From contig JAJPJJ010000077.1 in NCBI GenBank assembly GCA_021324295.1, forward strand, positions 1-47,651: DNA of 47,651 nt, given 5' to 3'. How positions within the stretch are numbered: position 1 is the stretch's first letter; every line of letters starts with the position of its first letter. Source of the DNA: Bacillota bacterium (GTDB lineage Bacteria; Sysuimicrobiota; Sysuimicrobiia; Sysuimicrobiales; Segetimicrobiaceae). Below are positions 17,131-38,834 of this stretch, in pieces. A program made the translations under genes and the position numbers. Under the pieces are notes generated by a model. That model was not told the origin of the DNA. It ran no database searches and saw only the letters and a program-made list of their open reading frames with translations.

Positions 17131-18323
17131 CGGACGCACCCAAGCAGACGGGCACGCCCCCGACGGGCGCAGGCAGGAATCCGCTGCAGGCGCTGCGCGA
17201 GGCGGGGCAGAGCATCTGGCTGGACTACATCCACCGGGGGATGCTACGCTCCGGGGAGTTTGCGCGGCTCGTCGCCGATGGGGTGAGCGGCGTCACGAGC
17301 AACCCGACGATCTTCGAGAAGGCGATCACCGGGAGCACCGACTACGACGATGCGCTGGACGCGCTCGTGGCGCAGGGGCAGAGCGCGGAGGAGATCTACG
17401 AGACGCTGATCACGGAGGACATCCGGGCGGCGGCCGACACCCTCCGGCCGGTCTTCGACAACACGGGCGGGGCGGACGGCTACGTGTCCGTGGAGGTCTC
17501 GCCGCTGCTCGCCCACGACACCACAAGCACGATCCAGGAGGTCCGCCGGTGGTTTGCGCAGATCGACCGGCCCAACCTCAAGGTCAAGATCCCGGCCACG
17601 CGCGAGGGCATTCCGGCGATCGAGCAGATGATCGCCGAGGGGCGCAACATCAACATCACGCTCATCTTCTCGCTCGAGATGTACCGGGAGGTGATCGAGG
17701 CGTACCTCCGCGGCCTGGAGCGGCGCGTGGCGGACGGGCAGCCGGTGGATCGGATCGCGTCGGTGGCGAGCTTCTTCGTCAGCCGGATCGATACCGAGGC
17801 GGACCGGCGTCTGGAGGCCCGGGCCCAGGCTGCGCGCGATCCCACCGAGGCCGAGCGCATCCGCGCCCTGCGGGGGACCGTCGCGATCGCGAACGCGAAG
17901 CTGGCCTACGAGATGTTCCGCGAGGTCTTCGGGAGCGCCCGGTTCCGGGCGCTCGCGGCGCGGGGGGCGCGGGTCCAGCGGCCGCTGTGGGCCAGCACGA
18001 GCACCAAGAACCCGGCCTATCCGGACCTGCTCTACGTCGAGTCGCTCGTGGGGCCGGATACCATCAACACGCTGCCGCCCCACACGCTGGAGGCGCTGCG
18101 TGACCACGGCCGCATCACGCCGGGGACGGTGATGCAGGACCTGGACGGCGCCCGGCGCGTCTTCGCGCGCTTGGCGGAGATCGGGATCAGCATGGACGAC
18201 GTGACACAGACGGTCCTGGACAACGGCGTGAAGCTGTTCTCGGACTCCTTCGAGCAGCTCTTCCGGAGCATCGAGGAGCGCCGCCAGGCGGTGATCGGCG
18301 CCGCCTCCGCGAAGGCGACCTAG
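17127..18323 (+). CDS. tal: Transaldolase
   Basis: A 398-residue class I aldolase-type enzyme that transfers dihydroxyacetone units between sedoheptulose-7-phosphate and glyceraldehyde-3-phosphate. The long actinobacterial/cyanobacterial-type form is recognised from [19 protein letters not shown], the Schiff-base lysine in [11 protein letters not shown] (K154), [20 protein letters not shown] and [20 protein letters not shown]. It overlaps tkt by four bases (ATGA at 17127-17130), so the two enzymes are translationally coupled and made in similar amounts. About 250 bases, including an inverted repeat copy, separate it from gnd. Confidence 0.95.
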
Positions 18324-18476: not shown

Positions 18477-18572
18477 GCCGCCCCCCCCCGTCAGACGTCG
18501 GAGATCATGCGCGAGGCGCCCCTCGCGCACCATCACGAGCAGGGCATGGGCGAGCCCAGGAGGGAAAGTGGC

Positions 18573-19472
18573 ATGAAAGTCGGATTCGTCGGGTTCGGCC
18601 GCATGGGCGGCAACATGGTGGCCCGCCTTCTGGGCCGCGGCCACGAGGCGGTCGTGTACGCCCGCCGGGCCGAGGTGCGGGCCGAGATCGAGTCCCGGGG
18701 CGCCGTGCCGGCCTCCTCGCTCGAGGACCTCGTGAGCAGGCTGCCGCAGCCCCGCCTCGTGTGGCTCATGGTGCCCGCCGGTGAGGCGACGGAGCAGAAC
18801 ATCGGGGCGCTGTTGCCGCTGCTCTCTCCCGGGGACATCCTCGTCGACGGGGGAAACTCGTACTACAAGGACTCGATCCGGCGCGCTGGGGCCGCGCGCG
18901 CGCTGGGGCTCCACTTCATCGACGCGGGCACGAGCGGAGGGATCTGGGGCCTGCAGGTGGGGTACTGCCTGATGGTCGGGGGCGAGCCGGAGCCGGTCGC
19001 GATCGCGGAGCCCGTCTTCCGTGCCCTCGCCCCCGAGGGCGGCTACCTCCACGTGGGCCCCAGCGGGGCGGGGCACTTCGTCAAGATGATCCACAACGGG
19101 ATCGAGTACGGGATGCTCCAGGCGTACGCGGAAGGCTTCGCGATCCTCCACGCATCCCCGTTCCGCTTCGACCTCCGCGCGATCAGCGCGCTGTGGAACC
19201 ACGGGAGCGTCGTGCGGTCCTGGCTGCTGGAGCTGGCCGAGCGCGCGTTTGCCGAGGATCCGGATCTCGGGACGATCCGCGGGTACGTCGAGGACTCCGG
19301 GGAAGGCCGGTGGACCGTGCAGCAGGCGATCGAGCAGGACGTGCCGGCGCCCGTGATCACCCTCTCGCTCCTCCAGCGGTTCCGGTCGCGCGAGGAGCAG
19401 GACTTTGGCGACAAGGTCATCGCCGCGCTGCGGCACCAGTTCGGCGGGCACGCGGTGCGCGCCGCCGAGTGA
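18573..19472 (+). CDS. gnd: 6-phosphogluconate dehydrogenase, short (YqeC/GndA-like) type
   Basis: A 300-residue NAD(P)-dependent decarboxylating dehydrogenase that converts 6-phosphogluconate to ribulose-5-phosphate. The Rossmann loop is GFVGFGRMGGNMV at the N terminus; substrate motifs are ILVDGGNSYYKDS, DAGTSGGIWGLQVGYCLMVGG and the catalytic-lysine segment GHFVKMIHNGIEYGMLQAY. At 300 residues it is the short form (about 300 against 470 for the classical enzyme), which commonly prefers NAD. AGGAGG lies eight bases before the ATG. It is 26 bases upstream of zwf, so these two oxidative-branch enzymes are co-transcribed. Confidence 0.93.
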   Translation: MKVGFVGFGRMGGNMVARLLGRGHEAVVYARRAEVRAEIESRGAVPASSLEDLVSRLPQPRLVWLMVPAGEATEQNIGALLPLLSPGDILVDGGNSYYKDSIRRAGAARALGLHFIDAGTSGGIWGLQVGYCLMVGGEPEPVAIAEPVFRALAPEGGYLHVGPSGAGHFVKMIHNGIEYGMLQAYAEGFAILHASPFRFDLRAISALWNHGSVVRSWLLELAERAFAEDPDLGTIRGYVEDSGEGRWTVQQAIEQDVPAPVITLSLLQRFRSREEQDFGDKVIAALRHQFGGHAVRAAE

Positions 19473-19498: not shown

Positions 19499-21055
19499 AT
19501 GCGCGTGATCTCTCCGGCCACCGTCTCCCCCTTGCGCGAAGGCCTCCGGCTGCGGCGCATGCCGGAGCCGTGTGTGGTCGTCATCTTCGGGGCCACCGGC
19601 GATCTAACGCACCGTAAGCTGATGCCGGCGCTCTATACGCTGATGCGGCTCGGCATGATCCCTCCCGCCTGCTCGGTCATCGGCGTGGCCCGGCGGCCCA
19701 AGACCGACGAGCAGTTCCGCGAGGAGATGGCCGCGGCGGTGCTCGGGCCCCACGCCTCCCCCGCCGACCGGGCGCTGTGGGAGACGTTTGCCCAGGGGCT
19801 GTTCTACGTCCAGACCGAGTTCCGCGACCCGGAGGGATACGCGCGGGTGCGCGCGACGCTCGAGCGCGTGGACCGCGAGCGCGGCACCGGTGGCAACCGC
19901 GTGTACTACCTGGCCACGGCTCCCGAGTTCTACGGGGAGATCGTGCACAACCTCGGCCAGTCCGGCCTCATCGAGCGGCACGCCGGCCAGCGGGACGGCC
20001 GCCGGCCCTGGTTGCGTGTGATCGTCGAGAAGCCATTCGGCCGCGACGTGCGGAGCGCCGAGGAGCTCAACCGCACGCTCCTCCGGGTGTTCCGGGAGAG
20101 CCAGGTCTACCGGATCGACCACTACCTGGGCAAGGAGACGGTCCAGAACATCCTGGTGTTTCGCTTTGCCAACGGCATTTTCGAGCCGCTCTGGAACCAG
20201 CACTACATCGACCACGTCCAGATCACCGTGGCGGAGTCGATCGGGGTCGAAGACCGCGCGGGCTACTACGAGACGGCCGGCGTCATCCGCGATATCGTGC
20301 AGAACCACATGATGCAGCTCCTGACGCTCGTCGCGATGGAACCCCCGGTGGCGTTCGAGGCCGACGAGGTGCGCAACGAGAAGGTCAAGGTGATCCGCGC
20401 GGCCCGGCGGCTGGCGCCCGATGACGTCCCCGCGAGCGTCGTCTTCGGCCAGTACGGGCCAGGGGCGATCGGCGGCGAGGAGGTCCCGGGGTATCGCCAG
20501 GAGCCGCGGGTGGCCGCGGGCTCACGGACGCCGACGTTCGTAGCGATGCGCCTGTTCCTGGACAACTGGCGATGGGCCGGCGTGCCGTTCTACCTCCGGT
20601 CCGGCAAGCGTCTCCCGAAGCGGGTCACCGAGATCGCCGTGCAGTTCAAGCAGGCGCCGCTCCCGCTCTTTCACGACGGCGCCCGCGATCCCAACCTGCT
20701 CGCGTTCAACATCCAGCCGGACGAGGGCATCTCCCTCCGGTTCGTCGCCAAGGCGCCAGGCACCACGATGAGGCTCCGGCCGGTCAACATGGGGTTCCAG
20801 TACGGCACCGCGTTCGCGGGCGAGGAGCTGAGCGCCTACGAGCGGCTGCTGCTCGACTGCATGTTGGGCGACCAGACGCTGTTTACCCGGCGGGACGAGG
20901 TCGAGGAGGCGTGGGCGCTGCTCGAGCCCGTGCTGACCTGGTGGGAGCGATCGTCGCCGCCCCCGGAGCTCCAAACCTACGAGGCGGGGACGTGGGGGCC
21001 CCCGGCCGCGTGGTCCCTGATCGAACGCGACGGGCGGCGGTGGCGCCGCTTGTGA
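19499..21055 (+). CDS. zwf: Glucose-6-phosphate 1-dehydrogenase
   Basis: A 518-residue enzyme that oxidises glucose-6-phosphate to 6-phosphogluconolactone. The coenzyme motif VIFGATGDLTHRKL (GATGDLTHRK at 31-40) and the active-site signature YRIDHYLGKETVQN (205-213) are both intact, and IVEKPFGRD and FYLRSGKRLPKRVTEI are typical. Length is standard. The ATG at 19499 has GGAGGA about six bases upstream. It is followed four bases later by its assembly partner OpcA, which suggests the redox-sensitive, OpcA-dependent form known from cyanobacteria and actinobacteria. Confidence 0.95.
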   Translation: MRVISPATVSPLREGLRLRRMPEPCVVVIFGATGDLTHRKLMPALYTLMRLGMIPPACSVIGVARRPKTDEQFREEMAAAVLGPHASPADRALWETFAQGLFYVQTEFRDPEGYARVRATLERVDRERGTGGNRVYYLATAPEFYGEIVHNLGQSGLIERHAGQRDGRRPWLRVIVEKPFGRDVRSAEELNRTLLRVFRESQVYRIDHYLGKETVQNILVFRFANGIFEPLWNQHYIDHVQITVAESIGVEDRAGYYETAGVIRDIVQNHMMQLLTLVAMEPPVAFEADEVRNEKVKVIRAARRLAPDDVPASVVFGQYGPGAIGGEEVPGYRQEPRVAAGSRTPTFVAMRLFLDNWRWAGVPFYLRSGKRLPKRVTEIAVQFKQAPLPLFHDGARDPNLLAFNIQPDEGISLRFVAKAPGTTMRLRPVNMGFQYGTAFAGEELSAYERLLLDCMLGDQTLFTRRDEVEEAWALLEPVLTWWERSSPPPELQTYEAGTWGPPAAWSLIERDGRRWRRL

Positions 21056-21059
21056 TTCG

Positions 21060-22229
21060 ATGGTGATACGCATTCCCGACTCACCGGCGCCGGTCGACGT
21101 TCGCGCCATCGAGCGGGAAGTGAACCGCCTCTGGCAGGCGGCGAGCGAGCGTCCGGAGCTTGCCGGCGCCGGGGGCGCGCCGGAGGGTCTCACGCGCATC
21201 TGCATGCTCACGCTCGTGGCGGTCGCGCGAGACGCCTCCACCCTCTCCCGCCTCACCGACGTGATCCAGCGCCTGACCCCGCGGTACCCCAGCCGCAGCA
21301 TCCTCGTGCGGTGCGGCGCCACGGGCAGCGACGAGCTCGGCGCGTGGGTCTCGGTGCACTGCGAAGGCGCCGACCGCGGCCGGCCGCGGGTTTGCTGCGA
21401 GCAGATCGTGCTCGCCGCGGGTGGCCGCGCGCTGTCGCGTGTCCCCGGGATCGTGCTCCCGCTGCTGGTCCCGGACCTCCCGGTGTATCTGTGGTGGGGC
21501 GAGGACGTCCCCATGGCAGAAGGGGCCGCGGCGGAGGTGGCCCGCCATCTCGTGGCCGCGTCCGACTGCCTGGTCGTCGATTCGGCGACCACGGCGCGGC
21601 CGCTCACGACGCTGGCTGCGGCCGCCGCCCTCGCCGCTCCCCTGACCGGGGGCCTGCGCGACCTCACGTGGGGACGGCTCACGCCCTGGCGCGAGGTGAT
21701 CGCGCAGAGCTTTGAGCCCGCGCCGATGGCCGCGATGCTCGACCGGCTGGAGCGTGTCGCCGTCGCCGCAGATGCGACGGGCTCGGAGGCGGACCCGATC
21801 GAGGCGCTGCTGCTGATCGGGTGGCTCGCGAGCCGCCTCGGATGGGAGGTCCTCCAGGGGTCCGCGGAGCGGCACGCTGGTGGGATCCGCGTACTCTGCC
21901 GCAGGTCTGGCGCCGCGGCCAGCCCGGGGAGCCAGCCGGGCGAGACGGTCAGCGTGGAGATCCGCGGAGGCCCCGGCCCCGTATCGGCCGTGGAGCTCTG
22001 CGCCGGCGGTCCCGACCCCGCCTGTGCCGTCCTCACGCGAGGCCGGCGCGACGACGGCTACGTGGAGGTCGAGATCCGGCCGGGCCGTGGCCGTCCGCGG
22101 CGGCACACGATCCCCTTTGCTGTGCCGGACGATGTTGCGCTGCTCGCGGCCGAGCTGGACCTCGTCACGCCCAGCCGGGGCCTCGCGCGCGCCCTGGATC
22201 TCGTGCGCCGCGCCGTCCCCGGCGCGTGA
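21060..22229 (+). CDS. opcA: Glucose-6-phosphate dehydrogenase assembly protein OpcA
   Basis: A 389-residue protein of the OpcA family. In cyanobacteria and actinobacteria OpcA binds Zwf and promotes its active oligomer. Recognisable segments are TRICMLTLVAVARD near 65-80, HPSRSIL-like RYPSRSILV, EQIVLAAGG, LVPDLPVYLWWGEDVP and PIEALLLIGWLASRLGW. The ATG lies only four bases past the zwf stop, so it depends on translational coupling, and pgl follows after 34 bases. The gene order zwf-opcA-pgl is itself good evidence. Confidence 0.9.
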   Translation: MVIRIPDSPAPVDVRAIEREVNRLWQAASERPELAGAGGAPEGLTRICMLTLVAVARDASTLSRLTDVIQRLTPRYPSRSILVRCGATGSDELGAWVSVHCEGADRGRPRVCCEQIVLAAGGRALSRVPGIVLPLLVPDLPVYLWWGEDVPMAEGAAAEVARHLVAASDCLVVDSATTARPLTTLAAAAALAAPLTGGLRDLTWGRLTPWREVIAQSFEPAPMAAMLDRLERVAVAADATGSEADPIEALLLIGWLASRLGWEVLQGSAERHAGGIRVLCRRSGAAASPGSQPGETVSVEIRGGPGPVSAVELCAGGPDPACAVLTRGRRDDGYVEVEIRPGRGRPRRHTIPFAVPDDVALLAAELDLVTPSRGLARALDLVRRAVPGA

Positions 22230-22263
22230 GCGCGGGATCGACCACGGCACCCGGGGGCGGACC

Positions 22264-23070
22264 ATGGCCGATGTCCCAGTAGGTCCGGAGATCATCGTGC
22301 TGCCCGACGCCGCGTCGTTCGTAGCCGCGGCCGCGGAGCGCGTGTCCCGCCGATGCGCCGACGCCATCGAGGAGCGCGGGGAGTGCGCGATCGCGCTCAC
22401 AGGGGGCGACACGCCGCGGCCGATCTACGCGCGACTGGCCCGCGAGCCGTACCGGAGCCGCCTGCCCTGGGACCGCGTCCGCGTGTTCTGGGGCGACGAG
22501 CGGTGCGTGCCGCCCGAGGACCCCCGCAGCAACTTCCGGATGGCGCAGGACACGCTGCTGCAGCACGTGCCGATTCCCCCGTCCCGCGTGCACCGCATGC
22601 CGGCGGAGCGCGCGGACCTCGTGGCCGCCGCGCTCGACTATGCGGAGGAGCTCAGCGCCCACCTGCCGCCGGGCGACGGCGGCGTTCCTCGGTTCGATCT
22701 CGTGCTGCTCGGGATGGGCGAGGACGGCCACATCGCATCGCTGTTTCCGGGAGCGCCCGCGCTCCGGGAGACTCGACGCACGGTCGTGGCGTACTACGTC
22801 CCCCAGGTCACCATGAACAGGATGACGCTGACGGTGCCGGTCCTCACGCACGCCGCGGAGGTGTGCGTCCTGGTATCGGGAGCGCAGAAGGCGGATGCGG
22901 TGTGGTGGGCGTTGGAGGGGCCGCCGGAACCGGAGCGGGTTCCGGCGCAGCTCCTCAGGCGGTCCGGTGGCCGGGTCGTCTGGCTCGTGGACGCCGCCGC
23001 GGCGTCGCGCCTCTCCGACCGACCCCCGTCCGGCGCTGCTCCGCCGGAGGGCCGGGAAGCCGGCGGCTGA
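22264..23070 (+). CDS. pgl: 6-phosphogluconolactonase
   Basis: A 268-residue lactonase of the DevB/SOL family that hydrolyses the product of Zwf to 6-phosphogluconate. Motifs: IALTGGDTPRPIYARLA, VRVFWGDERCVPPEDPRSNFRMA and LGMGEDGHIASLFPG. Its 3' end overlaps the RsbW-like gene on the other strand by 116 bases, and the last 25 or so residues (PSGAAPPEGREAGG region) are low-complexity, so the true conserved domain ends just before the overlap. Confidence 0.93.
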   Translation: MADVPVGPEIIVLPDAASFVAAAAERVSRRCADAIEERGECAIALTGGDTPRPIYARLAREPYRSRLPWDRVRVFWGDERCVPPEDPRSNFRMAQDTLLQHVPIPPSRVHRMPAERADLVAAALDYAEELSAHLPPGDGGVPRFDLVLLGMGEDGHIASLFPGAPALRETRRTVVAYYVPQVTMNRMTLTVPVLTHAAEVCVLVSGAQKADAVWWALEGPPEPERVPAQLLRRSGGRVVWLVDAAAASRLSDRPPSGAAPPEGREAGG

Positions 23071-23767: not shown

Positions 23768-24760
23768 ATGGGGCGCGGGGGGAAGTGCGCGATTCTCGTT
23801 CTGATCGGCGTGCTGCTCGCGGCGCCGGTCTCGTGGCAGGCGGCGCCGGCCCGGGCGGCGGCCGAGACGCTGCGCATCGGGTACTCGACCTGGGTCGGGT
23901 ACGGCCCGCTGTTCCTGGCGCGGGACAAGCGGTTCTTCGACGAGACCGGCGTGAACGCCGAGCTCGTGAACATCGAGGATCCCAAGCTCCGGTTCGCCGC
24001 CCTCGCCGCGGGCAAGCTGGACGGGCTGGTGACGACCCTCGATACGATGAGCCTCTACTGGAAGCCTACGTTCCAGTTCCAGGCCGTGCTCGGTCTCGAT
24101 GACAGCAAGGGCGGCGACGGCATCGTCGCGCGGACCACGATCAGGGCGATCACGGACCTGCGCGGGAAGCGGGTAGCGGTCAACCGGGGCTCGGTGTCGG
24201 ACTTCTTCCTCAACGTCATCCTGCACGATCACGGCATGACGGAGAAGGATCTGACCATCGTCAACATGCGGCAGGACGATGCGGGCGCGGCGTTCCTCGG
24301 CGGCAAGGTGGATGCCGCGGTGACGTGGGAGCCGTGGCTCTCCCGCGCGAAGCGCGCGCCGGGCGGGCACGTCCTGATCGACAGCAGCAAGACGCCGGGC
24401 TTGATCGTCGACGTGCTGCTGTTCCGGCGGGATGTGATCAAGGCGCACCCCGAGGCGATCAAGGCGGTCGTCGCCGGGTGGTATCGCGCCGTCGACTACT
24501 GGAAGCAGAATCCCGATGATGCCGACGCCGTGATGGCGAAGGCGGTCGGCGGCTGGCTCAAAGACGTGAAGACGTTCAAGGAGACGCTCGACGGCGTGCG
24601 GTACTACGACCAGGCGATCAACAAGCAGTACATGGCGCCCGGCGGTCAGATCTACGTGACCGCTCAGAAAGCGATCGACACGTGGACCGCGTTCGGAAGG
24701 ATCACGGTGAAGATGGGCGCGGGCGACCTGGTCAATGCCGAGTTCGTCCGGGCGATGTAG
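23768..24760 (+). CDS. NitT/TauT-family ABC transporter substrate-binding protein
   Basis: A 330-residue periplasmic or lipid-tethered binding protein. A signal peptide is clear (GKCAILVLIGVLLAAPVSWQ, cleavage likely after AARA-type sequence near residue 31). The mature part opens ETLRIGYSTWVGYGPLFLAR, typical of the NMT1/SsuA/TauA-like family that binds small nitrogen or sulfur compounds such as nitrate, taurine, thiamine precursors or guanidine. VTWEPWLSRA is another family hallmark. The next genes are its permease and ATPase, then a ureohydrolase, which favours a guanidino compound as ligand. GGGAGG precedes the ATG. Confidence 0.88.
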   Translation: MGRGGKCAILVLIGVLLAAPVSWQAAPARAAAETLRIGYSTWVGYGPLFLARDKRFFDETGVNAELVNIEDPKLRFAALAAGKLDGLVTTLDTMSLYWKPTFQFQAVLGLDDSKGGDGIVARTTIRAITDLRGKRVAVNRGSVSDFFLNVILHDHGMTEKDLTIVNMRQDDAGAAFLGGKVDAAVTWEPWLSRAKRAPGGHVLIDSSKTPGLIVDVLLFRRDVIKAHPEAIKAVVAGWYRAVDYWKQNPDDADAVMAKAVGGWLKDVKTFKETLDGVRYYDQAINKQYMAPGGQIYVTAQKAIDTWTAFGRITVKMGAGDLVNAEFVRAM

Positions 24761-24780
24761 AGGCAGGTGCGCCACGGCTT

Positions 24781-25620
24781 GTGAGCCTGGCTCAGGTCCG
24801 CCCGTCCTCCCCGCGCCGGGCGCGGCGCACGATCTGGGACGTCCTCCGGCCCCACGAGCCGATTCCGCGGGGGACCTATCTCGCGATCCTCGCGGGCAGC
24901 GGCCTCGGCATGGTGGCCGCCTGGTGCGCGTTGACCTACGGCGGCGTCGTCGCGCCCCTGTTCCTGCCGAGCCCGACGACGACCATCCGCTCGGGCATCA
25001 CGCTCGTCGCCGACGGCACGCTCCTGCAAAACGCCGAGGCCAGCCTGTCCGTGATCGTGACCGGGTGGGCGCTCGCCGTCGTCGCCGGCGTGCCGATCGG
25101 GATCCTGATGGGCTCGTTCAAGGCGGTCGAGGCGCTGATCGAGCCGGTGATCGACTTCGTGCGGTACCTGCCGGTGAGCGCGCTCATCCCGCTGCTGATC
25201 CTGTACATCGGGATCGGCACGGCCGAGAAGGTGGCCGTGATCTTCATCGGCACGTTCTTCCAGCTCGTGCTGCTCGTCGCCGATGTCGCCGCGCACGTGC
25301 CGCGGGAGCAGATCGACGTCTCGTACACACTCGGCGCCTCCCGCGCCCAGGTGATCCGGCGCGTCCTCCTGCCCGCGACGCTCCCCGGCGTCATGGACAC
25401 GCTGCGCATCACGATGGGGTGGGCGTGGACGTACCTCGTCGTGGCGGAGCTCGTGTCCGCCGACCGCGGCCTGGGCTTCATGATCCTGGACTCGATGCGC
25501 GGGTTCTTTGTGGACCGGATCTTCGTCGGGCTCGCCACGATCGGAGGCCTGGGGCTCGGCTTCGACCTCGCGTTCAAGTGGCTGCACCGGCGCCTGCTGC
25601 CGTGGTCGCCGAAGGCGTGA
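24781..25620 (+). CDS. NitT/TauT-family ABC transporter permease
   Basis: A 279-residue inner-membrane permease (SsuC/TauC/NrtB type) with about six membrane helices. The EAA loop that docks on the ATPase is visible as IDVSYTLGASRAQVIRRVLLP. The GTG at 24781 follows the binding-protein stop by 20 bases; it has only a distant GGCAGG, so a different start within a few codons is possible. Its stop lies 11 bases before the chosen ATPase start. Confidence 0.88.
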   Translation: MSLAQVRPSSPRRARRTIWDVLRPHEPIPRGTYLAILAGSGLGMVAAWCALTYGGVVAPLFLPSPTTTIRSGITLVADGTLLQNAEASLSVIVTGWALAVVAGVPIGILMGSFKAVEALIEPVIDFVRYLPVSALIPLLILYIGIGTAEKVAVIFIGTFFQLVLLVADVAAHVPREQIDVSYTLGASRAQVIRRVLLPATLPGVMDTLRITMGWAWTYLVVAELVSADRGLGFMILDSMRGFFVDRIFVGLATIGGLGLGFDLAFKWLHRRLLPWSPKA

Positions 25621-25631
25621 CGGAGGTGCCC

Positions 25632-26438
25632 GTGGCGGCCGCCAAGCTCAGCCTGCGGGAGATCACGGTCGTCTTCCGCGCCCGCCGGGCCCCGGAGGTC
25701 GTAGCGATCGACCGCCTGTCGCTGGACGTGGCGGACCGGGAGATCGTCAGCATCGTCGGGCCCAGCGGCTGCGGCAAGAGCACGCTCCTGCGCCTCGTGG
25801 CCGGGCTGGTCCGGCCATCGGCGGGGGAGATCCTCCTGGACGGGCGCGTGGTCACGGACCCGGGCGCGGAGCGCGGGATGGTGTTCCAGTCCTACACCCT
25901 GTTCCCGTGGCTCACGGTGCAGGGCAACGTCGAGTTCGGTCCGCGGATCCGCGGGATGCCGGAGGAGCACTGCCGCGAGGTCGCCGCGCGGTACATCCAG
26001 ATGGTGGGCCTCACCGGCTTCGAGCGCGCGTACCCCAAGGAGCTCTCCGGCGGCATGATGCAGCGCGTCGCGATCGCCCGCGCGCTGGCCAACGATCCCG
26101 AGGTCCTGCTGATGGACGAGCCGTTCGGCGCGCTCGATGCGCAGACGCGCGCGTTCATGCAGGAACTGCTGCTCGACATCTGGCAGAAGACGCCCAAGAC
26201 GATCCTGTTTGTGACGCACGATATCGACGAGGCGCTGTTCCTGGGGAGCCGGGTGTACGTGATGACGGCCCGGCCCGGCCGGCTGCGCGCCGAGGTGTCG
26301 GTCGCCCTTCCGCGTCCGCGCACGCTCGAGATCACCACCTCCGAAGAGTTCGTGGCGATCAAGCGGCGTGTGCTCGCGATGATCCGGGAGGAGGCAGGGA
26401 AGGCGCTCGGGATGGAGACCGCTCCGGCAGTGCCATGA
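25632..26438 (+). CDS. NitT/TauT-family ABC transporter ATP-binding protein
   Basis: A 268-residue ABC ATPase with Walker A (GPSGCGKST), Q loop (MVFQSYTLFPW), signature (ELSGGMMQRVAIARAL), Walker B (VLLMDEPFGALD) and H loop (LFVTHDIDEAL). It energises the permease just upstream. I choose GTG 25632 because GGAGG lies five bases before it; GTG 25617, overlapping the permease stop, would add five residues. The length is standard for SsuB/TauB/NrtD relatives. Confidence 0.9.
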   Translation: MAAAKLSLREITVVFRARRAPEVVAIDRLSLDVADREIVSIVGPSGCGKSTLLRLVAGLVRPSAGEILLDGRVVTDPGAERGMVFQSYTLFPWLTVQGNVEFGPRIRGMPEEHCREVAARYIQMVGLTGFERAYPKELSGGMMQRVAIARALANDPEVLLMDEPFGALDAQTRAFMQELLLDIWQKTPKTILFVTHDIDEALFLGSRVYVMTARPGRLRAEVSVALPRPRTLEITTSEEFVAIKRRVLAMIREEAGKALGMETAPAVP

Positions 26439-26487
26439 GGAGCATGGTGCAGAGCTGCAGGCGTTGCGTGGCAGGAACGGGAGGGTG

Positions 26488-26567
26488 CGAGGTACGGCCT
26501 TCGCCTTCCTTCGAGGGACGGATTCGGCAGGGTGCTCAGGCCGGATCCCCACTTCCCCCCTCACCTG
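26488..26567 (+). repeat. Dispersed intergenic repeat, copy D (hairpin missing)
   Basis: Matches copy C on both flanks: GTCGAGGGACGGATTC-like TTCGAGGGACGGATTC on the left, and GGTGCTCAGGCCGGATCCCC on the right against GGCGCTCAGGCCAGCCCCC in copy C. The central 14-bp hairpin present in copy C is absent, as if precisely deleted. It lies between the ABC ATPase and ureohydrolase genes. Confidence 0.6.
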
Positions 26568-26644
26568 TCACGACGTTGACACGATCGTGCACCGGCGGAC
26601 ACGGTGGGTGAGACCCCGTCGGTGAAGGAGCACGCGGTCCGGCC

Positions 26645-27595
26645 ATGACGGAACCCTTCGAGCCGCCGAACGCGTTCCGGTCCCCGCGGTTCGCCCAGCT
26701 CTCCACGTTCATGCGGCTGCCCTACGCCCGCTACCCCGCCGGGCTGGACGTGGCGATCCTGGGGATCCCCTTCGACGGCGGCGTCAGCTTCCGCTCGGGC
26801 GCCCGGTTCGGCCCGAAGGAGATCCGGTCCAACTCGCTGCTGATCCGGCCCTACAATCCGGTGCTCCGCACGCTCCCGTTCAGCCGGCTCCGCGTCGCGG
26901 ACTGCGGGGACGTCGATACCAACCCGATGGACATCCTGGATACGTACAGGCGCGTCGAGGAGGCGGTGGGACGGATCCTGGCCGCGGGCGCGGTGCCCGC
27001 CTGCGTCGGGGGCGACCACTCGCTGTCGCTACCGATCCTGCGCGCGGTGGCCGGCGCGCACGGGCGGGTCGCGCTCGTCCACTTCGACAGCCACCAGGAT
27101 ATGTGGGAGGAGTACTTCGGCAACCGGTACTTCCACGGGACGCCGTTCCGGCGGGCGCTGGAGGAGGGGCTCTACGATCCCCGGGCCACCGTGCAGGTCG
27201 GCATCCGCGGCCCGGTGTACTCGGACCGGGACTTCGCGTTCGGGGCGGAACACGGGGTCACCGTCGTCCGGGCGGAGGAGGTCCACCGCCACGGGGAGGA
27301 GAGCGTGCGGCCGCACCTCGAGCGGCTGCGGGGCCGGAAGGTCTACGTCTCGTTCGACATCGACTCGGTCGATCCGGCGTTCGCACCCGGCACCGGCACG
27401 CCGGAGGTGGGCGGGCTCACGAGCGCGCAGGCCCTGGAGCTGGTGCGCATGCTGGCGGGCCTCGAGATCGTCGGGTTCGACATCGTGGAGGTATCACCGC
27501 CGTACGACCAGAGCGGCATCACCGCGATGCTCGCCGCCAACGTGCTGTTCGAGCTGATCGCCGTGATCTCGCTGTCCCGTCCGGCCGGCTCCTAG
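26645..27595 (+). CDS. Ureohydrolase (agmatinase/guanidinobutyrase-like)
   Basis: A 316-residue binuclear metal hydrolase that removes urea from a guanidino compound. All six expected metal ligands are present: H125 (GGDHS), D148, H150 and D152 (HFDSHQD) and D238 and D240 (SFDIDSVDPAF). The loop VQVGIRGPVYSDRDF and HGTPFRRALEEGL resemble guanidino-acid hydrolases (GbuA/GpuA) more than strict agmatinases. It follows a NitT/TauT-type transporter, an arrangement seen for the nickel-dependent guanidine hydrolase GdmH of cyanobacteria, but no hypA/hypB nickel chaperones are here. Candidate substrates are guanidinobutyrate, guanidinopropionate, agmatine or guanidine. Confidence 0.85.
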   Translation: MTEPFEPPNAFRSPRFAQLSTFMRLPYARYPAGLDVAILGIPFDGGVSFRSGARFGPKEIRSNSLLIRPYNPVLRTLPFSRLRVADCGDVDTNPMDILDTYRRVEEAVGRILAAGAVPACVGGDHSLSLPILRAVAGAHGRVALVHFDSHQDMWEEYFGNRYFHGTPFRRALEEGLYDPRATVQVGIRGPVYSDRDFAFGAEHGVTVVRAEEVHRHGEESVRPHLERLRGRKVYVSFDIDSVDPAFAPGTGTPEVGGLTSAQALELVRMLAGLEIVGFDIVEVSPPYDQSGITAMLAANVLFELIAVISLSRPAGS

Positions 27596-27628
27596 TCCAG
27601 CTGGGCAGACGTCCCGTGGCCGCTACGG

Positions 27629-27755
27629 TGGGGTGCGGGGGTTCGCCTCCGGTCGAGGGACGGATTCCCACCCCGACGAATCGCGAAAGGACTGCGATTC
27701 GTCGGGGGCCCCGGGGGCGCTCAGGCCAGCCCCCACGCTCCCCCCACACCCGCCT
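27629..27755 (+). repeat. Dispersed intergenic hairpin repeat, copy C
   Basis: Shares GGTCGAGGGACGGATTCCC and flanks with copies A and B. The centre is a perfect 14-bp hairpin: CCCCGACGAATCGC at 27671-27684 and GCGATTCGTCGGGG at 27694-27707 with a nine-base loop. Where copy A has an A:T pair (CCCCAAC/GTTGGGG) this copy has G:C, a compensatory change supporting the stem. It lies just past the ureohydrolase stop and could also end that transcript. Confidence 0.7.
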
Positions 27756-28140: not shown

Positions 28141-29826
28141 TCAGGAGATGGGCCGCGGGGATATCGGCAGTGCCAGACCGTGGCGGCGCGCGGCGTCGAT
28201 GGCCTGAGGGTACCCCGCGTCCGCGTGCCGGACGATCCCGATCCCCGGGTCGGTCGTGAGCACGCGCTCGAGCCGCCGGGCGGCGGCCGGCGTGCCGTCG
28301 GCGACGGCGACCATGCCGGCGTGGATCGAGTACCCGATCCCCACGCCGCCGCCGTGGTGCACCGCCACCCACGTCGCGCCCCCGACCGCGTTGAGGAGCG
28401 CGTTCAAGATCGGCCAGTCGGCGATCGCGTCGCTGCCGTCGGCCATCGCCTCCGTCTCCCGGTACGGTGACGCCACGGAGCCGGTGTCCAGATGATCCCG
28501 GCCGATCACGATCGGCGCCTGGAGATGCCCGCGGGCGACCATCTCGTTGATCGCGAGGCCGAACCGGGCGCGCTCGCCGTAGCCGAGCCAGCACACGCGC
28601 GCGGGGAGCCCCTGGAACGGCACGCGCTCCCCCGCGAGCCGGATCCAGCGGGTCAGGGTCTCCTGCTCGGGGAAGAGGCGCAGCACGACCTCGTCGGTCT
28701 TCCGGATGTCCTCGGGCTCGCCGGAGAGCGCGACCCACCGGAACGGGCCGCGTCCCTCGCAGAACAGCGGCCGGACGTACGCCGGCACGAACCCCGGGAA
28801 CGCGAACGCGTCCGCCACCCCCGCGTCCCGGGCCTGCGCGCGGATGTTGTTGCCGTAGTCAAAGGCGACGGCTCCCTGCCGGTAGAGGGCGAGCATCGCC
28901 TCGACGTGCCGGGCCACCGACGCCCGGGCGCGCGCGACGTACGCCTGCGGGTCGCGACGCCGCAGCGCCGCCGCCTCGGACGCGGAGAGGCCCGCGGGGA
29001 TGTACCCCTCGAGCAGGTCGTGCGCCGACGTCTGATCGGTCACGACGTCCACGCGCACGCCGCGGCGGACGATCTCCCGGTAGACCTCCGACGCGTTGCC
29101 CAGCAGGGCGATCGAGCGGGGGCGGCCCTCCCGGACCGCTTGGTGGGCCAGGTGGAGCGCGGCATCGAGGCTCTGCGTCGTCTCATCGACCCACCCGGCG
29201 CGCGCCCGCCGCTCGATGCGCGCGGGATCCGCCTCCACGACGAGGCCCACGCCCTCGTTCATCGTGATCGCGAGCGGCTGCGCCCCGCCCATCCCGCCCA
29301 GCCCGGCCGTGAGGACGAAGCGGCCCCGCAGGCTCCCCCCGAAGTGCCGCCGGGCGACGGCCGCGAACGTCTCGTAGGTGCCCTGGATGATCCCCTGCGT
29401 GCCGATGTAGATCCACGAGCCCGCGGTCATCTGGCCGTACATCGTGAGCCCCAGCGCTTCGAGCCGGCGGAACTCGTCCCAGGTGGCCCACGCGGGTACG
29501 AGCATCGCGTTGCTGATCAGCACCCGCGGCGCATCCGCGTGCGACCGGAACACCCCCACGGGCTTGCCCGACTGGACGAGCAACGTCTCGTCGTCCCCCA
29601 GCGCGCGCAGGCATCGTACGATGGCGTCGAAGCAGTCCCAGTTGCGCGCCGCCCGGCCGGTGCCGCCGTAGACGATCAGGTCCTCGGGCTTCTCCGCGAC
29701 CTCGGGGTCGAGGTTGTTCATCAGCATCCGCAGCGCCGCCTCCTGCTGCCAGCCGCGGCAGGAGAGGGCGGTGCCCCGCGGGGCCCGGATGGCTCTCGTT
29801 GCATCGCTTCTTCCCGCGTGGTCCAA
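28141..29826 (-). CDS. hutU: Urocanate hydratase
   Basis: A 561-residue NAD+-dependent urocanase that converts urocanate to imidazolone-propionate, the second step of histidine breakdown. Signatures: [14 protein letters not shown] near 51-64, [27 protein letters not shown] and the active-site cysteine C412 in [15 protein letters not shown]. Length is standard. The predicted start is TTG 29826; an AGGAGGAGG site about eight bases upstream supports it, and the conserved family start ([20 protein letters not shown]) begins shortly after. It ends the hut operon and is 78 bases from the ABC permease. Its GC content is very high, unlike the genes just upstream of it. No hutI, hutG or hutF is in the window. 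Confidence 0.95.
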
Positions 29827-29904
29827 TCGGTCCGCCTCCTCCTGATCCTACGCGGTCACGATGCTGGCGGGCATGCTGCGCAGGCGCTGGTTAGCCCTCG
29901 AGCC

Positions 29905-30594
29905 TCATGCATGATGAAGGGAGAAGCGCTTCTCGACCATGCTGACCATCTGTTGTAAGATGATCACCATCACGACGTAGAAGATTGCTGCGAGTGAGTA
30001 GGCTACCAGGTTCTGGAATGTGGCCGCGGCGGCCAGTTGCGCATCCCGCATCAGCTCGGTGACTCCGATCACGGATGCCAGTGATGTCCCCTTGAGCACT
30101 GTGATGAACTCGTTCCCCAACGGCGCGAACGCCACCCTGAGGGATTGCGGGATAATGACGCGCCGCATGGTGAGCCAGTAGGACATGCCGAGAGAACGCG
30201 CGGCTTCGGTCTGCTCGGGGGGAATGGACTGGATGCTCGCCCGAATGATTTCCGTGGAATAGGCGCCACTGTTGAGCGCGAACGCCACTACCGCGGCGAG
30301 GATCCTGTTGTTCAGGGGCGACAGCAGATCCATGAGGAATCGTATTCCGAGGTCGTGGGCCCAGCTCGGAAGCCCGAAGTACACGACGTAGAGGAGGACG
30401 AGGGGGGGTACACCGCGGAAGATAGCCACGTAGCCGCTGGCGAGGGTCCTCACTGCGGGTCTCTCTGACACGCGCCCGAGAGCGCCGACAAGCCCGATGG
30501 CGACGGACCCGAGCATGCTTGTGAGCGTAAGCCCCATGCCAACGACGGCGCCGATCGTGTAGAAGGGAAGATAGTCGCGCGCGAACTGGAGCAT
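29905..30594 (-). CDS. Polar amino-acid ABC transporter permease (HisM/GlnP type)
   Basis: A 229-residue inner-membrane permease of the His/Glu/Gln family. It shows the family N-terminal pattern GMGLTLTSMLGSVAIGLVGA, the FRGVPPLVLLYVVYFGLP loop and the EAA motif EQTEAARSLGMSYWLTMRRV IIPQ region. A single permease could work as a homodimer. It starts eight bases after the ATPase stop. GC content is moderate compared with the flanking hutU. With its binding protein and ATPase it should import a polar amino acid or an amino-acid-like compound. Confidence 0.92.
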   Translation of the reverse strand: MLQFARDYLPFYTIGAVVGMGLTLTSMLGSVAIGLVGALGRVSERPAVRTLASGYVAIFRGVPPLVLLYVVYFGLPSWAHDLGIRFLMDLLSPLNNRILAAVVAFALNSGAYSTEIIRASIQSIPPEQTEAARSLGMSYWLTMRRVIIPQSLRVAFAPLGNEFITVLKGTSLASVIGVTELMRDAQLAAAATFQNLVAYSLAAIFYVVMVIILQQMVSMVEKRFSLHHA

Positions 30595-30602
30595 CGTGGA
30601 TT

Positions 30603-31469
30603 CTACGCCAACGACATGCGCCGTAAGAAGGATTCAATCCGCGGAGTCTGCGGCCTCGTGAAAAACTCCCTGGCACCTTGGTCCACGACGATGGTGCCAC
30701 CCTCCATGAACGCCACGCGGTCCGCAACGTCGCGCGCAAAGGACATCTCGTGCGTCACGACAATCATCGTCATGCCCTGCTGCGCGAGTCTCCGCATGAC
30801 CGCGAGCACTTCGCCGACCAGTTCGGGATCTAACGCGGACGTGACCTCGTCGAACAGCATGACCTCGGGCTGCATACAGAGCGCCCGTGCGATTGCCACA
30901 CGCTGTTGTTGTCCTCCGGACAGCTGGTCGGGATAGGCGGTTACTTTGTCGGCGAGGCCCACCATGTTCAAGACCTCGTAAGCGCGGGTCAGCGCTTCGC
31001 GCTTTGGAACCCTCAGCACGTAGAGCGGTCCCTCTAACAGGTTTCCAAGAACCGTGCGGTGCCGAAAGAGGTTGAACCGCTGGAAGACCATGCCGATCCT
31101 CTTACGCACCTGGTTGACGTTGTGTTCGGAGTCTCGGACGAGCCGACCTCGCTCCTCCCGGTATCCGACCAGTTGGCCGTTGACATACACTCGTCCCGAG
31201 TCGTAGGGTACAAGGAAATTTATGCAGCGGAGCAGCGTCGTCTTGCCGGAGCCACTGGGCCCCACGATCGCAACCGTTTCACCGCGGGCGACCTTGAGGT
31301 TCACGTGGGACAGCGCCGTGGTGGCACCGAAGACCTTGCCGACGTCTATCAGCTCTACGACTGCGCCGTGGGCGCCCTGCGAGGGTGTGGTGGATAAGGC
31401 TGGGGCCGAGAGGACCGCACGGTCAGCGTTCTCTTCTCGGCCCGAGCGCACGAAGGACTCGTTCGGCAT
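30603..31469 (-). CDS. Polar amino-acid ABC transporter ATP-binding protein (GlnQ/HisP type)
   Basis: A 288-residue ABC ATPase: Walker A GPSGSGKTTLLRCINFL, Q loop MVFQRFNLFRHRTV, signature QLSGGQQQRVAIARAL, Walker B VMLFDEVTSALDPEL and H loop IVVTHEMSFARDVADRV. The first 37 or so residues form an extension not usual in GlnQ, before the domain begins at VVELIDVGKVFG; no better internal start codon is available, so it may be a real tail. It begins three bases after the binding-protein stop. Confidence 0.92.
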   Translation of the reverse strand: MPNESFVRSGREENADRAVLSAPALSTTPSQGAHGAVVELIDVGKVFGATTALSHVNLKVARGETVAIVGPSGSGKTTLLRCINFLVPYDSGRVYVNGQLVGYREERGRLVRDSEHNVNQVRKRIGMVFQRFNLFRHRTVLGNLLEGPLYVLRVPKREALTRAYEVLNMVGLADKVTAYPDQLSGGQQQRVAIARALCMQPEVMLFDEVTSALDPELVGEVLAVMRRLAQQGMTMIVVTHEMSFARDVADRVAFMEGGTIVVDQGAREFFTRPQTPRIESFLRRMSLA

Positions 31470-31472
31470 GCA

Positions 31473-32273
31473 CTACATCGACGGGATTAGCTTGATGTCC
31501 CCGAACCACTTCTTGTTGATCTTGTCGAGAGTGCCGTCCTTGATCATCGCCTCGATCGTGTCGTTGACAGCCGCGAGGAGCGCCGTATCCTGCTTTCTCA
31601 GAGCAGCCCCGATGAGCGCCGGTTCATCGGTGAGTTTTTGCCCGGTGACGCGCAGCTTCCCCTTGTACAGCTCCTTGGTGGTATAACCCGCACCGAGACT
31701 CTCCATGACGACCACGTCGAGCCGGCCGAGAACGAGGTCGTTGAACTCGTCAGCGACTGTATTATAGGTGGTGGGTTTGATGCCACCGATCTTCTCGACT
31801 GCGGCCGCCGCCGACGTGTTCACCTGGACGCCTACCCTGAGCTTCGCCAGATCGGCACGGCCCGGATTGAAGCTGGGCTTGTCCGTGCGCACCACCGTTG
31901 TGATCGTTTGTTCCATGTATGGCCGTGAAAACGCCACGACTTCCTTCCGCTTATCGGTGATCACCATGTTGGTGATCGCATCTATTTTGCCGCCGGTCAG
32001 CGCAGGAATGATCCCGTCCCATGCGACGCCCTGGTACTGAAGAGGCACCCCCAGGCGCTTAGCAAGTTCTGTGGCGAAATCCACATCGTAGCCTATCAAC
32101 TTTCCCGCCTTGTCGGCGAACGTGATGGGCCGGAAGTCGGGATCCGCGCCGACGCGTAGCACTTTGAGAGGCACCTTGGTCGCGCCTGGCAGGATCTGGG
32201 GTACCGACAGCGTCAACAAAAGGCAGGTCCCAAGGCCCACAGTGATCGTGAGCCATCGCATCATCCGTCTCAT
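31473..32273 (-). CDS. Polar amino-acid ABC transporter substrate-binding protein (SBP_bac_3)
   Basis: A 266-residue binding protein. A signal peptide covers about 1-30 (hydrophobic LTITVGLGTCLLLTLSVP). The mature domain starts LKVLRVGADPDFRPITFADK and has the family segments GYDVDFATELAKRLGV, WDGIIPALTGGKIDAI and TLDKINKKWFGD. These bind polar amino acids and related compounds. Two features differ from strict arginine/histidine binders, but the ligand cannot be read from sequence. Given the neighbours (histidine genes, HyuAB) an imidazole or cyclised amino-acid derivative is a reasonable candidate. GGGAGG lies six bases before the ATG. Confidence 0.9.
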   Translation of the reverse strand: MRRMMRWLTITVGLGTCLLLTLSVPQILPGATKVPLKVLRVGADPDFRPITFADKAGKLIGYDVDFATELAKRLGVPLQYQGVAWDGIIPALTGGKIDAITNMVITDKRKEVVAFSRPYMEQTITTVVRTDKPSFNPGRADLAKLRVGVQVNTSAAAAVEKIGGIKPTTYNTVADEFNDLVLGRLDVVVMESLGAGYTTKELYKGKLRVTGQKLTDEPALIGAALRKQDTALLAAVNDTIEAMIKDGTLDKINKKWFGDIKLIPSM

Positions 32274-32285
32274 GTATCTACCTCC

Positions 32286-34370
32286 CTAGCGAGATACCGT
32301 TGCCGTCCCCTGGTGATTGTCCCGGGCGGGCCGCACGTGGACCAGCAGGTCTAAGCCATCTTCCATCACCTCCACCGTGTCTCCTGTCGATAGCACGATC
32401 GTCGAATCATATTGCTCAACGATGGCCGGGCCTTCAAGGATCTGGCCTGAACAGAGGGAATCGCGTTGATGGACCGGGCAGAGGGCCGGCTCCGGGTCCG
32501 AGAGCCAGACGAGGCGATGCTGAGGCGCCGCCCCGGCCGGCCGCGCATGCTGCTTCGCTTCGGCGATGTGGTCGGGTGTAGGCCTGCCGTAGACGATGGT
32601 GGCTCGAATGTTGACGACCTCGATTGTGTCGGTGCGCGCGGAATGGCCGTAGCGACGCTCATGCTCGAGGTGGAACGCTTCGGCGGCCCGCGCCACGCCG
32701 GGGGCGCTGAGTTCATCGACTGCGACGGTAAGTGTGTGCGATTGTCCGCGGTAACGCAGGTCCACAGCTCTGTCTATCCGCAGGGGAGCTGCATGCAGTC
32801 CGTCCGATGCCACGCGCGCACCGAGCCCGCCAACGAGTCGATCGAATACCGCTGCTAGCTGCGACACGTCAATCTCGTTCCACGTCCGAAACCATGTCAG
32901 GTAGCCGGAGTAGCTGATGTCTGACGTCAGGATGCCATACGCGGACCATACGCCCGGATAGCGCGGAATGAGGACGCGTGGAACCTCCAGGGACCGGGCG
33001 ACATCTAGCGCGTGAAGAGGTCCTGCTCCGCCGAAGGCGATAAGGGTGAGCCCTCGGGGATCGTGTCCTCGCTCGACGGAGATGGCGCGAACAGCCCGCA
33101 CGATATTTGCGGTGACTACTTCGAGGATTCCCTGGGCTGCTCTGGCCCAGGTGAGGCCGAGGGGCCGGCCGAGTTGTTCCTCTATTCCCCTCGTCGCGGC
33201 GTCGCGGTCAATGACGAAATTCCCGCCCAGCATCGCGTTGGCACCGATGTGGCCGAGGGCTACGTGTGCGTCCGTGACCGTGGGGCGCGTTCCGCCTCGC
33301 AGGTAGCAAATTGGACCGGGATCGGCGCCGGCACTCAGCGGCCCTACGCGCAGGAGGCCAGTGGGGTCGATATATGCAACGGACCCTCCGCCGGCCCCTA
33401 CGGTCTCTACTTCGACGGAAGGAAGGGCGACCGCGTATCCTCCGACGGTGCGCTCATCTGTGTAGGGGAGGGCACCACCTTGTAGGAGCGCGACGTCCGT
33501 GCTTGTCCCACCGACGTCTAGGGTCAAGGCATCGCGCAATCCATGCCGCGTCGCTAAGCGAAGCCCGCCGATGACCCCGCCCGCGGGGCCGGACATGATG
33601 CACCTCACCGGGTACCGGCGAGCCTCTTGAAGGGTGAGGCACCCTCCTTCGGATCCCATGATGTAAACGCGCCGAACCCCCCGGTCCAGCAGCAACTTGA
33701 TACTTTCGATGAAGCGGTCGATCACCAGGGTCGTGGCGGCGTTTATGGCGGTCGTGCTCGTGCGCTCGTATTCGCGAAACACCGGAAGAACCTCGGACGA
33801 TAGAGAGACTGGGACCGCCAGCTCTTGGGCCAGGATTCCCCGCACGGTTTGTTCGTGCGTGGGATTGGCGAACGCGAAGAGGAGGCTGACGGCGACAGCC
33901 TGAACGTCTGCGTCACGAAGGGCCGTAGCGGCGGCTACGACGCTGTCCACATCCAGTGGGCACAGGACTTGCCCGTCGGCGTCGACGCGCTCCCTGACCT
34001 CCAGCCTCAAATGGCGGGGCACGAGGGGAGCCGGCCGGCGCTTCTGCAGATCGTATGGCGCCGGCCGCTCCATCCGGGCGATTTCCAGGACGTCTCTGAA
34101 GCCCTGGGTTGTTATCAGCCCTGTCCGCGCGAGTGTGCCCTGCAGGAGCGCGTTAGTGACCACCGTGGTGCCGATGACGATCGTGTCGATTTCTCCAATG
34201 TTGGCGCCAAACTGCTCAGTAAGCTGCTCAATAGCCTTGAGGAGGCTTTGCTCACGTCCCGCCAACTCGTTGGGCAGTTTCAATACCGCTAGTTCATGGG
34301 TCTCGGCGTCACACATGATAACGTCGATGAACGTCCCGCCCACGTCGATGGCCGCGTGTAGCCTCCCCAT
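32286..34370 (-). CDS. hyuA: Hydantoinase/5-oxoprolinase family subunit A (ATP-binding)
   Basis: A 694-residue subunit of the ATP-dependent N-methylhydantoinase, acetone carboxylase and 5-oxoprolinase family. The actin-like ATP-binding motifs are present: AIDVGGTFIDVIM (about 7-19), TIVIGTTVVTNALLQG (63-78), MSGPAGGVIGG (269-279) and LTLDVGGTSTDVALL (292-306), plus VGAGGGSVAYID. The enzyme phosphorylates the carbonyl of a lactam or cyclic imide so that HyuB can hydrolyse it. It overlaps the hyuB stop by one base (TGATG), so the subunits are translationally coupled, and the ABC binding protein follows 12 bases later. Substrate within the family is not decided by sequence: 5-oxoproline, hydantoins, or another lactam. 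Confidence 0.92.
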   Translation of the reverse strand: MGRLHAAIDVGGTFIDVIMCDAETHELAVLKLPNELAGREQSLLKAIEQLTEQFGANIGEIDTIVIGTTVVTNALLQGTLARTGLITTQGFRDVLEIARMERPAPYDLQKRRPAPLVPRHLRLEVRERVDADGQVLCPLDVDSVVAAATALRDADVQAVAVSLLFAFANPTHEQTVRGILAQELAVPVSLSSEVLPVFREYERTSTTAINAATTLVIDRFIESIKLLLDRGVRRVYIMGSEGGCLTLQEARRYPVRCIMSGPAGGVIGGLRLATRHGLRDALTLDVGGTSTDVALLQGGALPYTDERTVGGYAVALPSVEVETVGAGGGSVAYIDPTGLLRVGPLSAGADPGPICYLRGGTRPTVTDAHVALGHIGANAMLGGNFVIDRDAATRGIEEQLGRPLGLTWARAAQGILEVVTANIVRAVRAISVERGHDPRGLTLIAFGGAGPLHALDVARSLEVPRVLIPRYPGVWSAYGILTSDISYSGYLTWFRTWNEIDVSQLAAVFDRLVGGLGARVASDGLHAAPLRIDRAVDLRYRGQSHTLTVAVDELSAPGVARAAEAFHLEHERRYGHSARTDTIEVVNIRATIVYGRPTPDHIAEAKQHARPAGAAPQHRLVWLSDPEPALCPVHQRDSLCSGQILEGPAIVEQYDSTIVLSTGDTVEVMEDGLDLLVHVRPARDNHQGTATVSR

Positions 34371-36088: not shown

Positions 36089-36093
36089 GCCAA

Positions 36094-36543: not shown

Positions 36544-36591
36544 TGTTCACCCTCCGTATTGTGAGGCCGTTGCGCCCATAATGGACTCCCA

Positions 36592-37134: not shown

Positions 37135-37171
37135 TCGAGGCCCCCCTTTCCTTCGCATGTTCGTTGCGTGG

Positions 37172-38683: not shown

Positions 38684-38697
38684 CGTGCTATCTCTCC

Positions 38698-38733
38698 AAA
38701 GAGAAAGGAGCCACGCGCATACGGCGTGGCTCC
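38698..38733 (-). terminator. Intrinsic terminator in the hutH leader (HutP attenuator)
   Basis: On the minus strand GGAGCCACGC (38733-38724) pairs perfectly with GCGTGGCTCC (38716-38707) around a seven-base loop and is followed by TTTCTCTTT. It lies just before the hutH ribosome binding site. An upstream GTGGCT (38758-38753) can pair with AGCCAC (38731-38726) inside the stem, offering a competing structure. This is the place where HutP blocks termination in Bacillus. Confidence 0.8.
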
Positions 38734-38773: not shown

Positions 38774-38834
38774 CCTCGACCCCGATCCTCCTGCCGGACG
38801 ACCGTGGATTGTCCGCCCCGGCGAACCGCGGGCC

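Follow-up and report, generated by a model that had tools for sequence, protein, structure and literature searches.

A transporter-ureohydrolase operon

The DNA analyzed here (the window) is a stretch of 47,651 nucleotides, positions 1 to 47,651 of contig JAJPJJ010000077.1 in GenBank assembly GCA_021324295.1, from an uncultured bacterium filed under Bacillota and assigned by GTDB to the Sysuimicrobiota (family Segetimicrobiaceae). Its genome (G000) comprises 129 contigs, is 96% complete and shares its order with G030. The subject of this work is a four-gene operon in which the genes for an ATP-binding cassette (ABC) importer are followed by a gene for a ureohydrolase. The components were as follows.

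23768..24760, forward strand: substrate-binding protein (SBP) of the SsuA/NMT1 type (PF13379/PF09084, NMT1/NMT1_2; TIGR01728)
24781..25620, forward strand: ABC permease of the NitT/TauT type (PF00528, BPD_transp_1), start from the codon-model gene caller
25602..26438, forward strand: ABC ATPase of the NitT/TauT type (PF00005, ABC_tran), start uncertain (25602 or 25632)
26439..26644, no strand: spacer of 206 bases containing a copy of a genome-wide repeat, core at 26511
26645..27595, forward strand: ureohydrolase of the arginase family (PF00491, Arginase, 317.7 bits)

All four proteins matched Pfam families far above the cut-offs, and the importer was recognized as the NitT/TauT type from the joint occurrence of an SsuA/NMT1 binding protein, a BPD_transp_1 permease and an ATPase. 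The top NCBIfam models for the ATPase were the taurine, SaoA and nitrate ATPases, each of which scored below its cut-off. Gene starts around the operon were taken from a codon-model gene caller, and loci differing in GC content were handled with a cruder one. Two copies of the repeat, whose core is TCGAGGGACGGATTC, flank the ureohydrolase gene, at 26440-26640 and at about 27600-27750. The core was found at 15 sites in the genome with at most one mismatch (reversed control, 0), and some copies of the repeat contain an inner inverted repeat.

Active site, phylogeny and binding pocket

The six metal ligands of the ureohydrolase are all present (H125, D148, H150, D152, D238 and D240), as are the catalytic-type residues H164 and E282. 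The Pfam matches and the residue alignment thus bear out the first-pass annotation, made from the letters of the window, in its description of transporter genes beside a ureohydrolase with a complete metal site. R68 lies in the alignment column of GbuA R72, a residue that, as proposed in PMC9772407, caps the active site of the neighboring subunit and could there touch the carboxylate of the substrate. The same column holds Ala in the agmatinases SpeB and 4dz4 and Thr or Gly in GdmH. Y157 of the window enzyme corresponds to Y157 of GpuA, which we take to be a specificity residue; M161 of GbuA, presumably also a specificity residue, is replaced by Tyr in the window enzyme and is Met in 30 of 30 rows of the GbuA clade. 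T252 occupies the column of GdmH Trp305 (Synechocystis numbering), and V47-S48 occupy the region of GdmH Thr97, where GdmH has Thr-Thr; both Thr97 and Trp305 are needed by GdmH according to PMC11410670. The metal ligands, the catalytic His and Glu, R68 and T252 were kept in all 18 rows of the clade described below, and Y157 was kept in 17 of them.

The best-scoring solved relatives were GpuA (3nip, 326.6 bits) and GbuA (3nio, 319.9 bits), followed by proclavaminate amidinohydrolase (262.8 bits), while solved agmatinases scored 219.5 or less, guanidinases 173.2 and 164.3, and arginases also ranked behind GpuA and GbuA. A profile of 14 orthologues gave 386 bits for both GbuA and GpuA; the agmatinases reached 247 and 240 bits and the guanidinases 227 and 224. 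The NCBIfam arginase model was below its cut-off. With GpuA and GbuA of Pseudomonas aeruginosa the window enzyme has in common all metal ligands and the capping Arg, and with GpuA in particular the loop GIRGxVYS and Tyr157; it differs from both in belonging to a separate clade, in having W154 in place of Asn and in the adjoining ABC importer. An actinobacterial clade (Streptomyces, Mycetocola and others), which presumably includes the Arthrobacter guanidinobutyrase, has W154, Y157, V47 and a GxRGPxYG loop as in the window enzyme but is separate from its clade, and the 16 actinobacterial loci gave no match to this SBP. Human guanidino acid hydrolase (GDAH, formerly AGMAT) is alike in the position of the carboxylate- or sulfonate-capping Arg, acts on guanidino acids including taurocyamine and is closest to GbuA, as given in PMC9772407; unlike the window enzyme it is eukaryotic, and the likeness was drawn from its published description and not from its sequence.

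Phylogenetic placement was deduced from a quick tree of 123 ureohydrolase rows (128 less 5 duplicates) and a careful tree of 45 of these rows. In the quick tree the window enzyme fell in an 18-row clade of Sysuimicrobiota and Rokubacteria (Shimodaira-Hasegawa-like approximate likelihood ratio test [SH-aLRT] support, 95), separate from the GbuA clade (30 rows, 100), the GpuA clade (30 rows, 98), SpeB and GdmH. The careful tree gave supports of 94/85 for the window clade and 98/97 for GbuA plus GpuA, with the GdmH pair apart at 100/100. Approximately unbiased (AU) tests in which the window clade was forced together with another group gave p values of 0.032 for GdmH, 0.005 for GbuA and 0.0075 for GpuA, and a position beside GbuA plus GpuA was not rejected (p 0.166). 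Placement among the agmatinases, which the first-pass annotation had set against its own proposal, was not found: the enzyme fell outside SpeB/4dz4 in the tree, and forcing it there gave a p value of 0.044. Judged by sequence, the ureohydrolase is an uncharacterized Sysuimicrobiota/Rokubacteria lineage of its own, outside the GbuA and GpuA clades and probably outside that of SpeB, and it may be sister to GbuA plus GpuA. Taken with R68 and T252, this agrees with the earlier suggestion of an active site of the guanidino-acid hydrolase type rather than that of GdmH.

The SBP passed the broad SsuA model TIGR01728 (176.8 bits; cut-off, 163.5) and no equivalog model. The best equivalog was the urea-carboxylase-linked SBP TIGR03427 (128 bits; cut-off, 334), the taurine equivalog TIGR01729 scored 65.8 against a cut-off of 304, and no nitrate-binding equivalog in NCBIfam was matched. 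An AlphaFold2 model (predicted local distance difference test score, 90.6) was nearest in fold to TauA (6ssy; Z 29.8, 3.3 Å over 287 residues, 20% identity) and then to SsuA (Z 28.3, 2.8 Å over 285 residues), followed by other SsuA proteins, CmpA and NrtA at Z 25-26. No other family was clearly nearer in this comparison, in which absence from the match list excludes nothing. The binding-protein fold and the acidic pair of TauA are common to the window SBP and the Escherichia coli TauABC/SsuABC systems, from which the SBP differs in being only 20-21% identical and far under the taurine cut-off. The first-pass annotation had looked to nitrate and taurine binders as the groups that would speak against it, and the SBP lies outside the taurine equivalog and matched no nitrate equivalog but has TauA as its nearest fold.

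D117 and D215 of the SBP align with TauA E106 and D205, which hold the taurine amine, D205 being absent from SsuA (PMC6906117). D215 was Asp in all 49 SBP rows, and D117 was Asp or Glu in all 48 rows having a residue at that position. Such an acidic pair suits a ligand that is cationic at one end. The SBP tree was a quick tree from which three long-branch rows of an earlier set had been removed. A search of viral contigs for the SBP gave no match.

Recurrence of the pairing and its interpretation

Among ureohydrolase orthologues of the host's order (at least 62% identity), 13 of 18 adjoin the transporter. The order SBP-permease-ATPase-enzyme was found in 9 of 12 orthologues of the host's own family, and the order enzyme-SBP-permease-ATPase in 4 of 4 of a second family; those not beside the transporter were in G002, G005 and G008 (own family) and, on short contigs, in G017 and G039. 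Because so many are adjacent and the gene order differs between the two families, the linkage was deemed to exceed inherited synteny. In all eight family relatives with the gene order of the window, the ATPase and ureohydrolase genes overlap by 4-20 bases with no spacer (gene-caller starts). Across the 41 genomes of the order (G000-G040), 15 had both genes, 3 the enzyme only, 6 the importer only (in one of these, G038, with the SBP at a contig edge) and 17 neither (Fisher p 0.0004, kinship not corrected for).

The pairing was also found outside the order, in a contig scan that kept the best 80 of at least 562 matches, so that the counts are not a census. SBP matches were obtained in 8 of 385 alphaproteobacterial genomes. 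Five of these (Thalassospira, Tistrella and relatives) were linked in the enzyme-first arrangement, with SBPs 44-54% and permeases 58-63% identical to those of the window, and the other three (36-45%) were unlinked or at a contig edge. The ureohydrolase of the Thalassospira/Tistrella pairs belongs to the GpuA clade. On one Hyphomicrobiales contig an SBP of 51% identity adjoins a third, more distant kind of ureohydrolase, and Pararhizobium has the order SBP (38%)-permease-ATPase-ureohydrolase-NTF2-like-class III aminotransferase. A creatininase gene directly precedes a GpuA-clade ureohydrolase in seven Hyphomicrobiales loci (L087, L096, L104, L105, L128, L144 and L148); L087, the sole locus of the seven that was scanned, gave 311 bits against a cut-off of 235. 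A NitT-type SBP about 30% identical to that of the window lies upstream in six of the seven, being partial in L105, and L144 begins inside the ATPase. These loci tie the transporter-ureohydrolase theme to guanidino acids, but their SBP is distant and its ligand may differ. In L104 a DAO-family FAD-dependent oxidoreductase comes after the creatininase and ureohydrolase.

We consider it somewhat probable that the operon forms a module for taking up and cleaving small zwitterionic guanidino acids. The substrate class is a best guess from sequence comparison, based on R68, on the two acidic residues of the SBP and on the creatininase or aminotransferase genes that accompany relatives; a guanidino acid was chosen because the carboxylate-capping Arg of GbuA is retained in the enzyme. 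The binding protein would catch a molecule anionic at one end and bearing a guanidinium group at the other, which the permease and ATPase would import. The dinuclear-metal ureohydrolase would then cleave the guanidino group to give urea and the matching amino acid (e.g., beta-alanine, GABA, glycine or taurine), and the amino acid would be transaminated as a source of nitrogen and carbon. The urea is probably lost by the cell, as no urease alpha subunit was found in the window genome by a search that, as a positive control, detected it in 4 of 14 genomes. If confirmed, the module would represent an uptake route for guanidino acids and would assign a function to a clade of ureohydrolases at present labeled "agmatinase" by sequence models; it would also point to genes by which Hyphomicrobiales may use creatinine. 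The literature found describes ureohydrolase-linked ABC uptake for free guanidine; no ABC importer for guanidino acids linked to a ureohydrolase was found in a search with most subscription journals outside its coverage. A broader proposal, which we offer tentatively and regard as doubtful, is that the SBP clade as a whole comprises undescribed importers of zwitterionic guanidino acids (guanidinopropionate, guanidinobutyrate, guanidinoacetate/creatine or taurocyamine), that three or more ureohydrolase subfamilies have independently become partners of this clade, and that the Hyphomicrobiales combination of a related transporter, creatininase and arginase-fold ureohydrolase forms a creatinine pathway without classical creatinase.

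Several observations weigh against the module as proposed. The 206 bases with their repeat copy between the ATPase and ureohydrolase genes weaken the earlier claim that the genes form one unit, which is otherwise upheld by the adjacency and the two gene orders among orthologues. Importer orthologues without an adjoining ureohydrolase occur in seven genomes of the order, arguing against exclusive coupling: in G005 and G008 the importer, at the same locus, directly faces hutU and the enzyme is elsewhere, and G015, G016, G029, G035 and G037 have no member of the enzyme clade and carry a class III aminotransferase gene beside the importer. G126 has both importer and enzyme, at separate places, and within the 26-row SBP clade 19 rows adjoin a ureohydrolase, 6 do not and 1 is at a contig edge. 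D117 and D215 are kept also in importers with other enzyme partners and so are not specific for guanidino acids. The substrate of proclavaminate amidinohydrolase also bears a carboxylate, and this enzyme has His in the R72 column, so that the Arg is not obligatory. The careful tree gives no settled branching order for the three deep groups. Finally, two NCBIfam agmatinase models were passed by the enzyme, TIGR01230 (225.5 bits; cut-off, 174.3) and NF002564 (304.4 bits; cut-off, 302). The guanidino-acid scavenging put forward in the first-pass annotation was supported at the level of substrate class; as the importer also occurs without the enzyme, it may transport a broader range of zwitterions, omega-amino acids among them.

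The passing of these two models speaks for an agmatinase with an unrelated transporter beside it, which we consider unlikely. Another ureohydrolase of the same genome (C22, L071) adjoins spermidine synthase, where an agmatinase is usually located, while the window enzyme has R68 where SpeB and 4dz4 have Ala, the AU test gave a p value of 0.044 for grouping with these two, and the transporter linkage was found again in other phyla.

A second alternative, decidedly unlikely in our view, is a transporter for omega-amino acids or another zwitterion that feeds a class III aminotransferase, with the ureohydrolase as a facultative partner in some lineages. It would account for the aminotransferase beside the importer in five of five enzyme-less loci (two identified by family models, three by clustering with them) and for G005 and G008, whose importer locus lacks the enzyme. 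At the five enzyme-less loci, however, the aminotransferase gene runs on the strand opposite to the importer, and the co-presence of importer and enzyme among the 41 genomes, kinship uncorrected, also speaks against this alternative.

The genes downstream of the operon suggest a third alternative, that the ureohydrolase fills the gap left in the histidine pathway by a missing formimidoylglutamase. They were identified by family matches as follows.

28141-39536, reverse strand: hut cluster
28141-29727, reverse strand: hutU, downstream of the ureohydrolase gene
29905-32273, reverse strand: amino-acid ABC transporter, within the hut cluster
32286-36088, reverse strand: hydantoinase A/B genes, within the hut cluster
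37172-38683, reverse strand: HutH (681 bits over 539)
39108-39536, reverse strand: HutP (169 bits over 155)

hutU faces the enzyme gene in the window and in five family relatives, in some with genes between, and hutU and hutI occupy that place in G010. HutI and HutG were not above cut-off anywhere in the genome, and other ureohydrolases adjoin hutI in G014 and G015. This assignment was nonetheless judged quite improbable. The formimidoylglutamase model TIGR01227 failed for the enzyme (141.6 bits; cut-off, 229), and a glutamate formiminotransferase domain encoded in the genome (PF07837, FTCD_N, contig C55) would do that step. No hutU match was found near the paired loci of the second family or of Alphaproteobacteria, and the enzyme and hut genes are convergent, with no shared operon. 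The hydantoinase genes might stand in for HutI.

Import and hydrolysis of free guanidine, as by the cyanobacterial GdmH operon (GdmH, HypAB and an ABC transporter; PMC12186494 and PMC11410670), was the least credible explanation. The plan of a NitT-type ABC transporter with a ureohydrolase is common to both, the best SBP equivalog, itself far below cut-off, is the urea-carboxylase-linked one, and a true GdmH in G139 adjoins related transporter genes (SBPs 33% and 37% identical to that of the window). Both G139 SBPs keep the acidic pair yet fall outside the SBP clade of the window. A GdmH-type guanidine hydrolase was rejected on the specificity residues (Thr252 for Trp305, Val47-Ser48 at the Thr97 region), the separate clade with its AU result and the lack of a riboswitch, and the failure to find urease alpha also differs from the GdmH operon. 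An Rfam scan of the window gave no family at gathering score, guanidine riboswitches included; a relaxed-threshold scan around the operon gave three matches only (E 0.09-4.3), no riboswitch among them; and seven (of 12 selected) loci of relatives gave no family at gathering score. None of the annotated neighbors is hypA or hypB, the whole genome not having been searched for them. Both absences had been noted in the first reading of the sequence. The operon is close to the GdmH operon in its working and is not a member of that family.

Neighboring genes and related loci

Upstream of the operon lie genes of the pentose-phosphate pathway.

17127-18323, forward strand: transaldolase
18507-19472, forward strand: phosphogluconate dehydrogenase
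19499-23070, forward strand: putative zwf, opcA and pgl, named from reading the sequence without a family search

The window genome encodes four ureohydrolases (C22, C63, C89 and C107), three of which have ABC transporter genes, of differing kinds, as neighbors. That of C22, given its spermidine synthase neighbor, is a likely agmatinase; that of C89 adjoins a dipeptide-type SBP, and that of C63 lies in a sugar-type ABC cluster with an amidohydrolase and a PucR regulator.

The GdmH locus of G139 (L269, contig C125, 609-7558) is an operon with a true GdmH (64% identical to 7esr), two NitT-type SBPs, a permease and an ATPase, together with two genes named by eye, one for an isochorismatase-like hydrolase and the other amidohydrolase-like. 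No Rfam match was found within 10 kb of it, so a guanidine riboswitch is not universal at GdmH loci. Three Pseudomonas plasmids, two of them from wastewater treatment plants, encode a NitT-type SBP 36% identical to that of the window. Such plasmid-bearing strains we take to be metformin degraders. On the Pseudomonas hydrolytica plasmid NZ_CP100554.1 (L169) this SBP occurs with a nucleoside deaminase and an isochorismatase-family hydrolase, and in the quick SBP tree it groups with one of the GdmH-linked SBPs.

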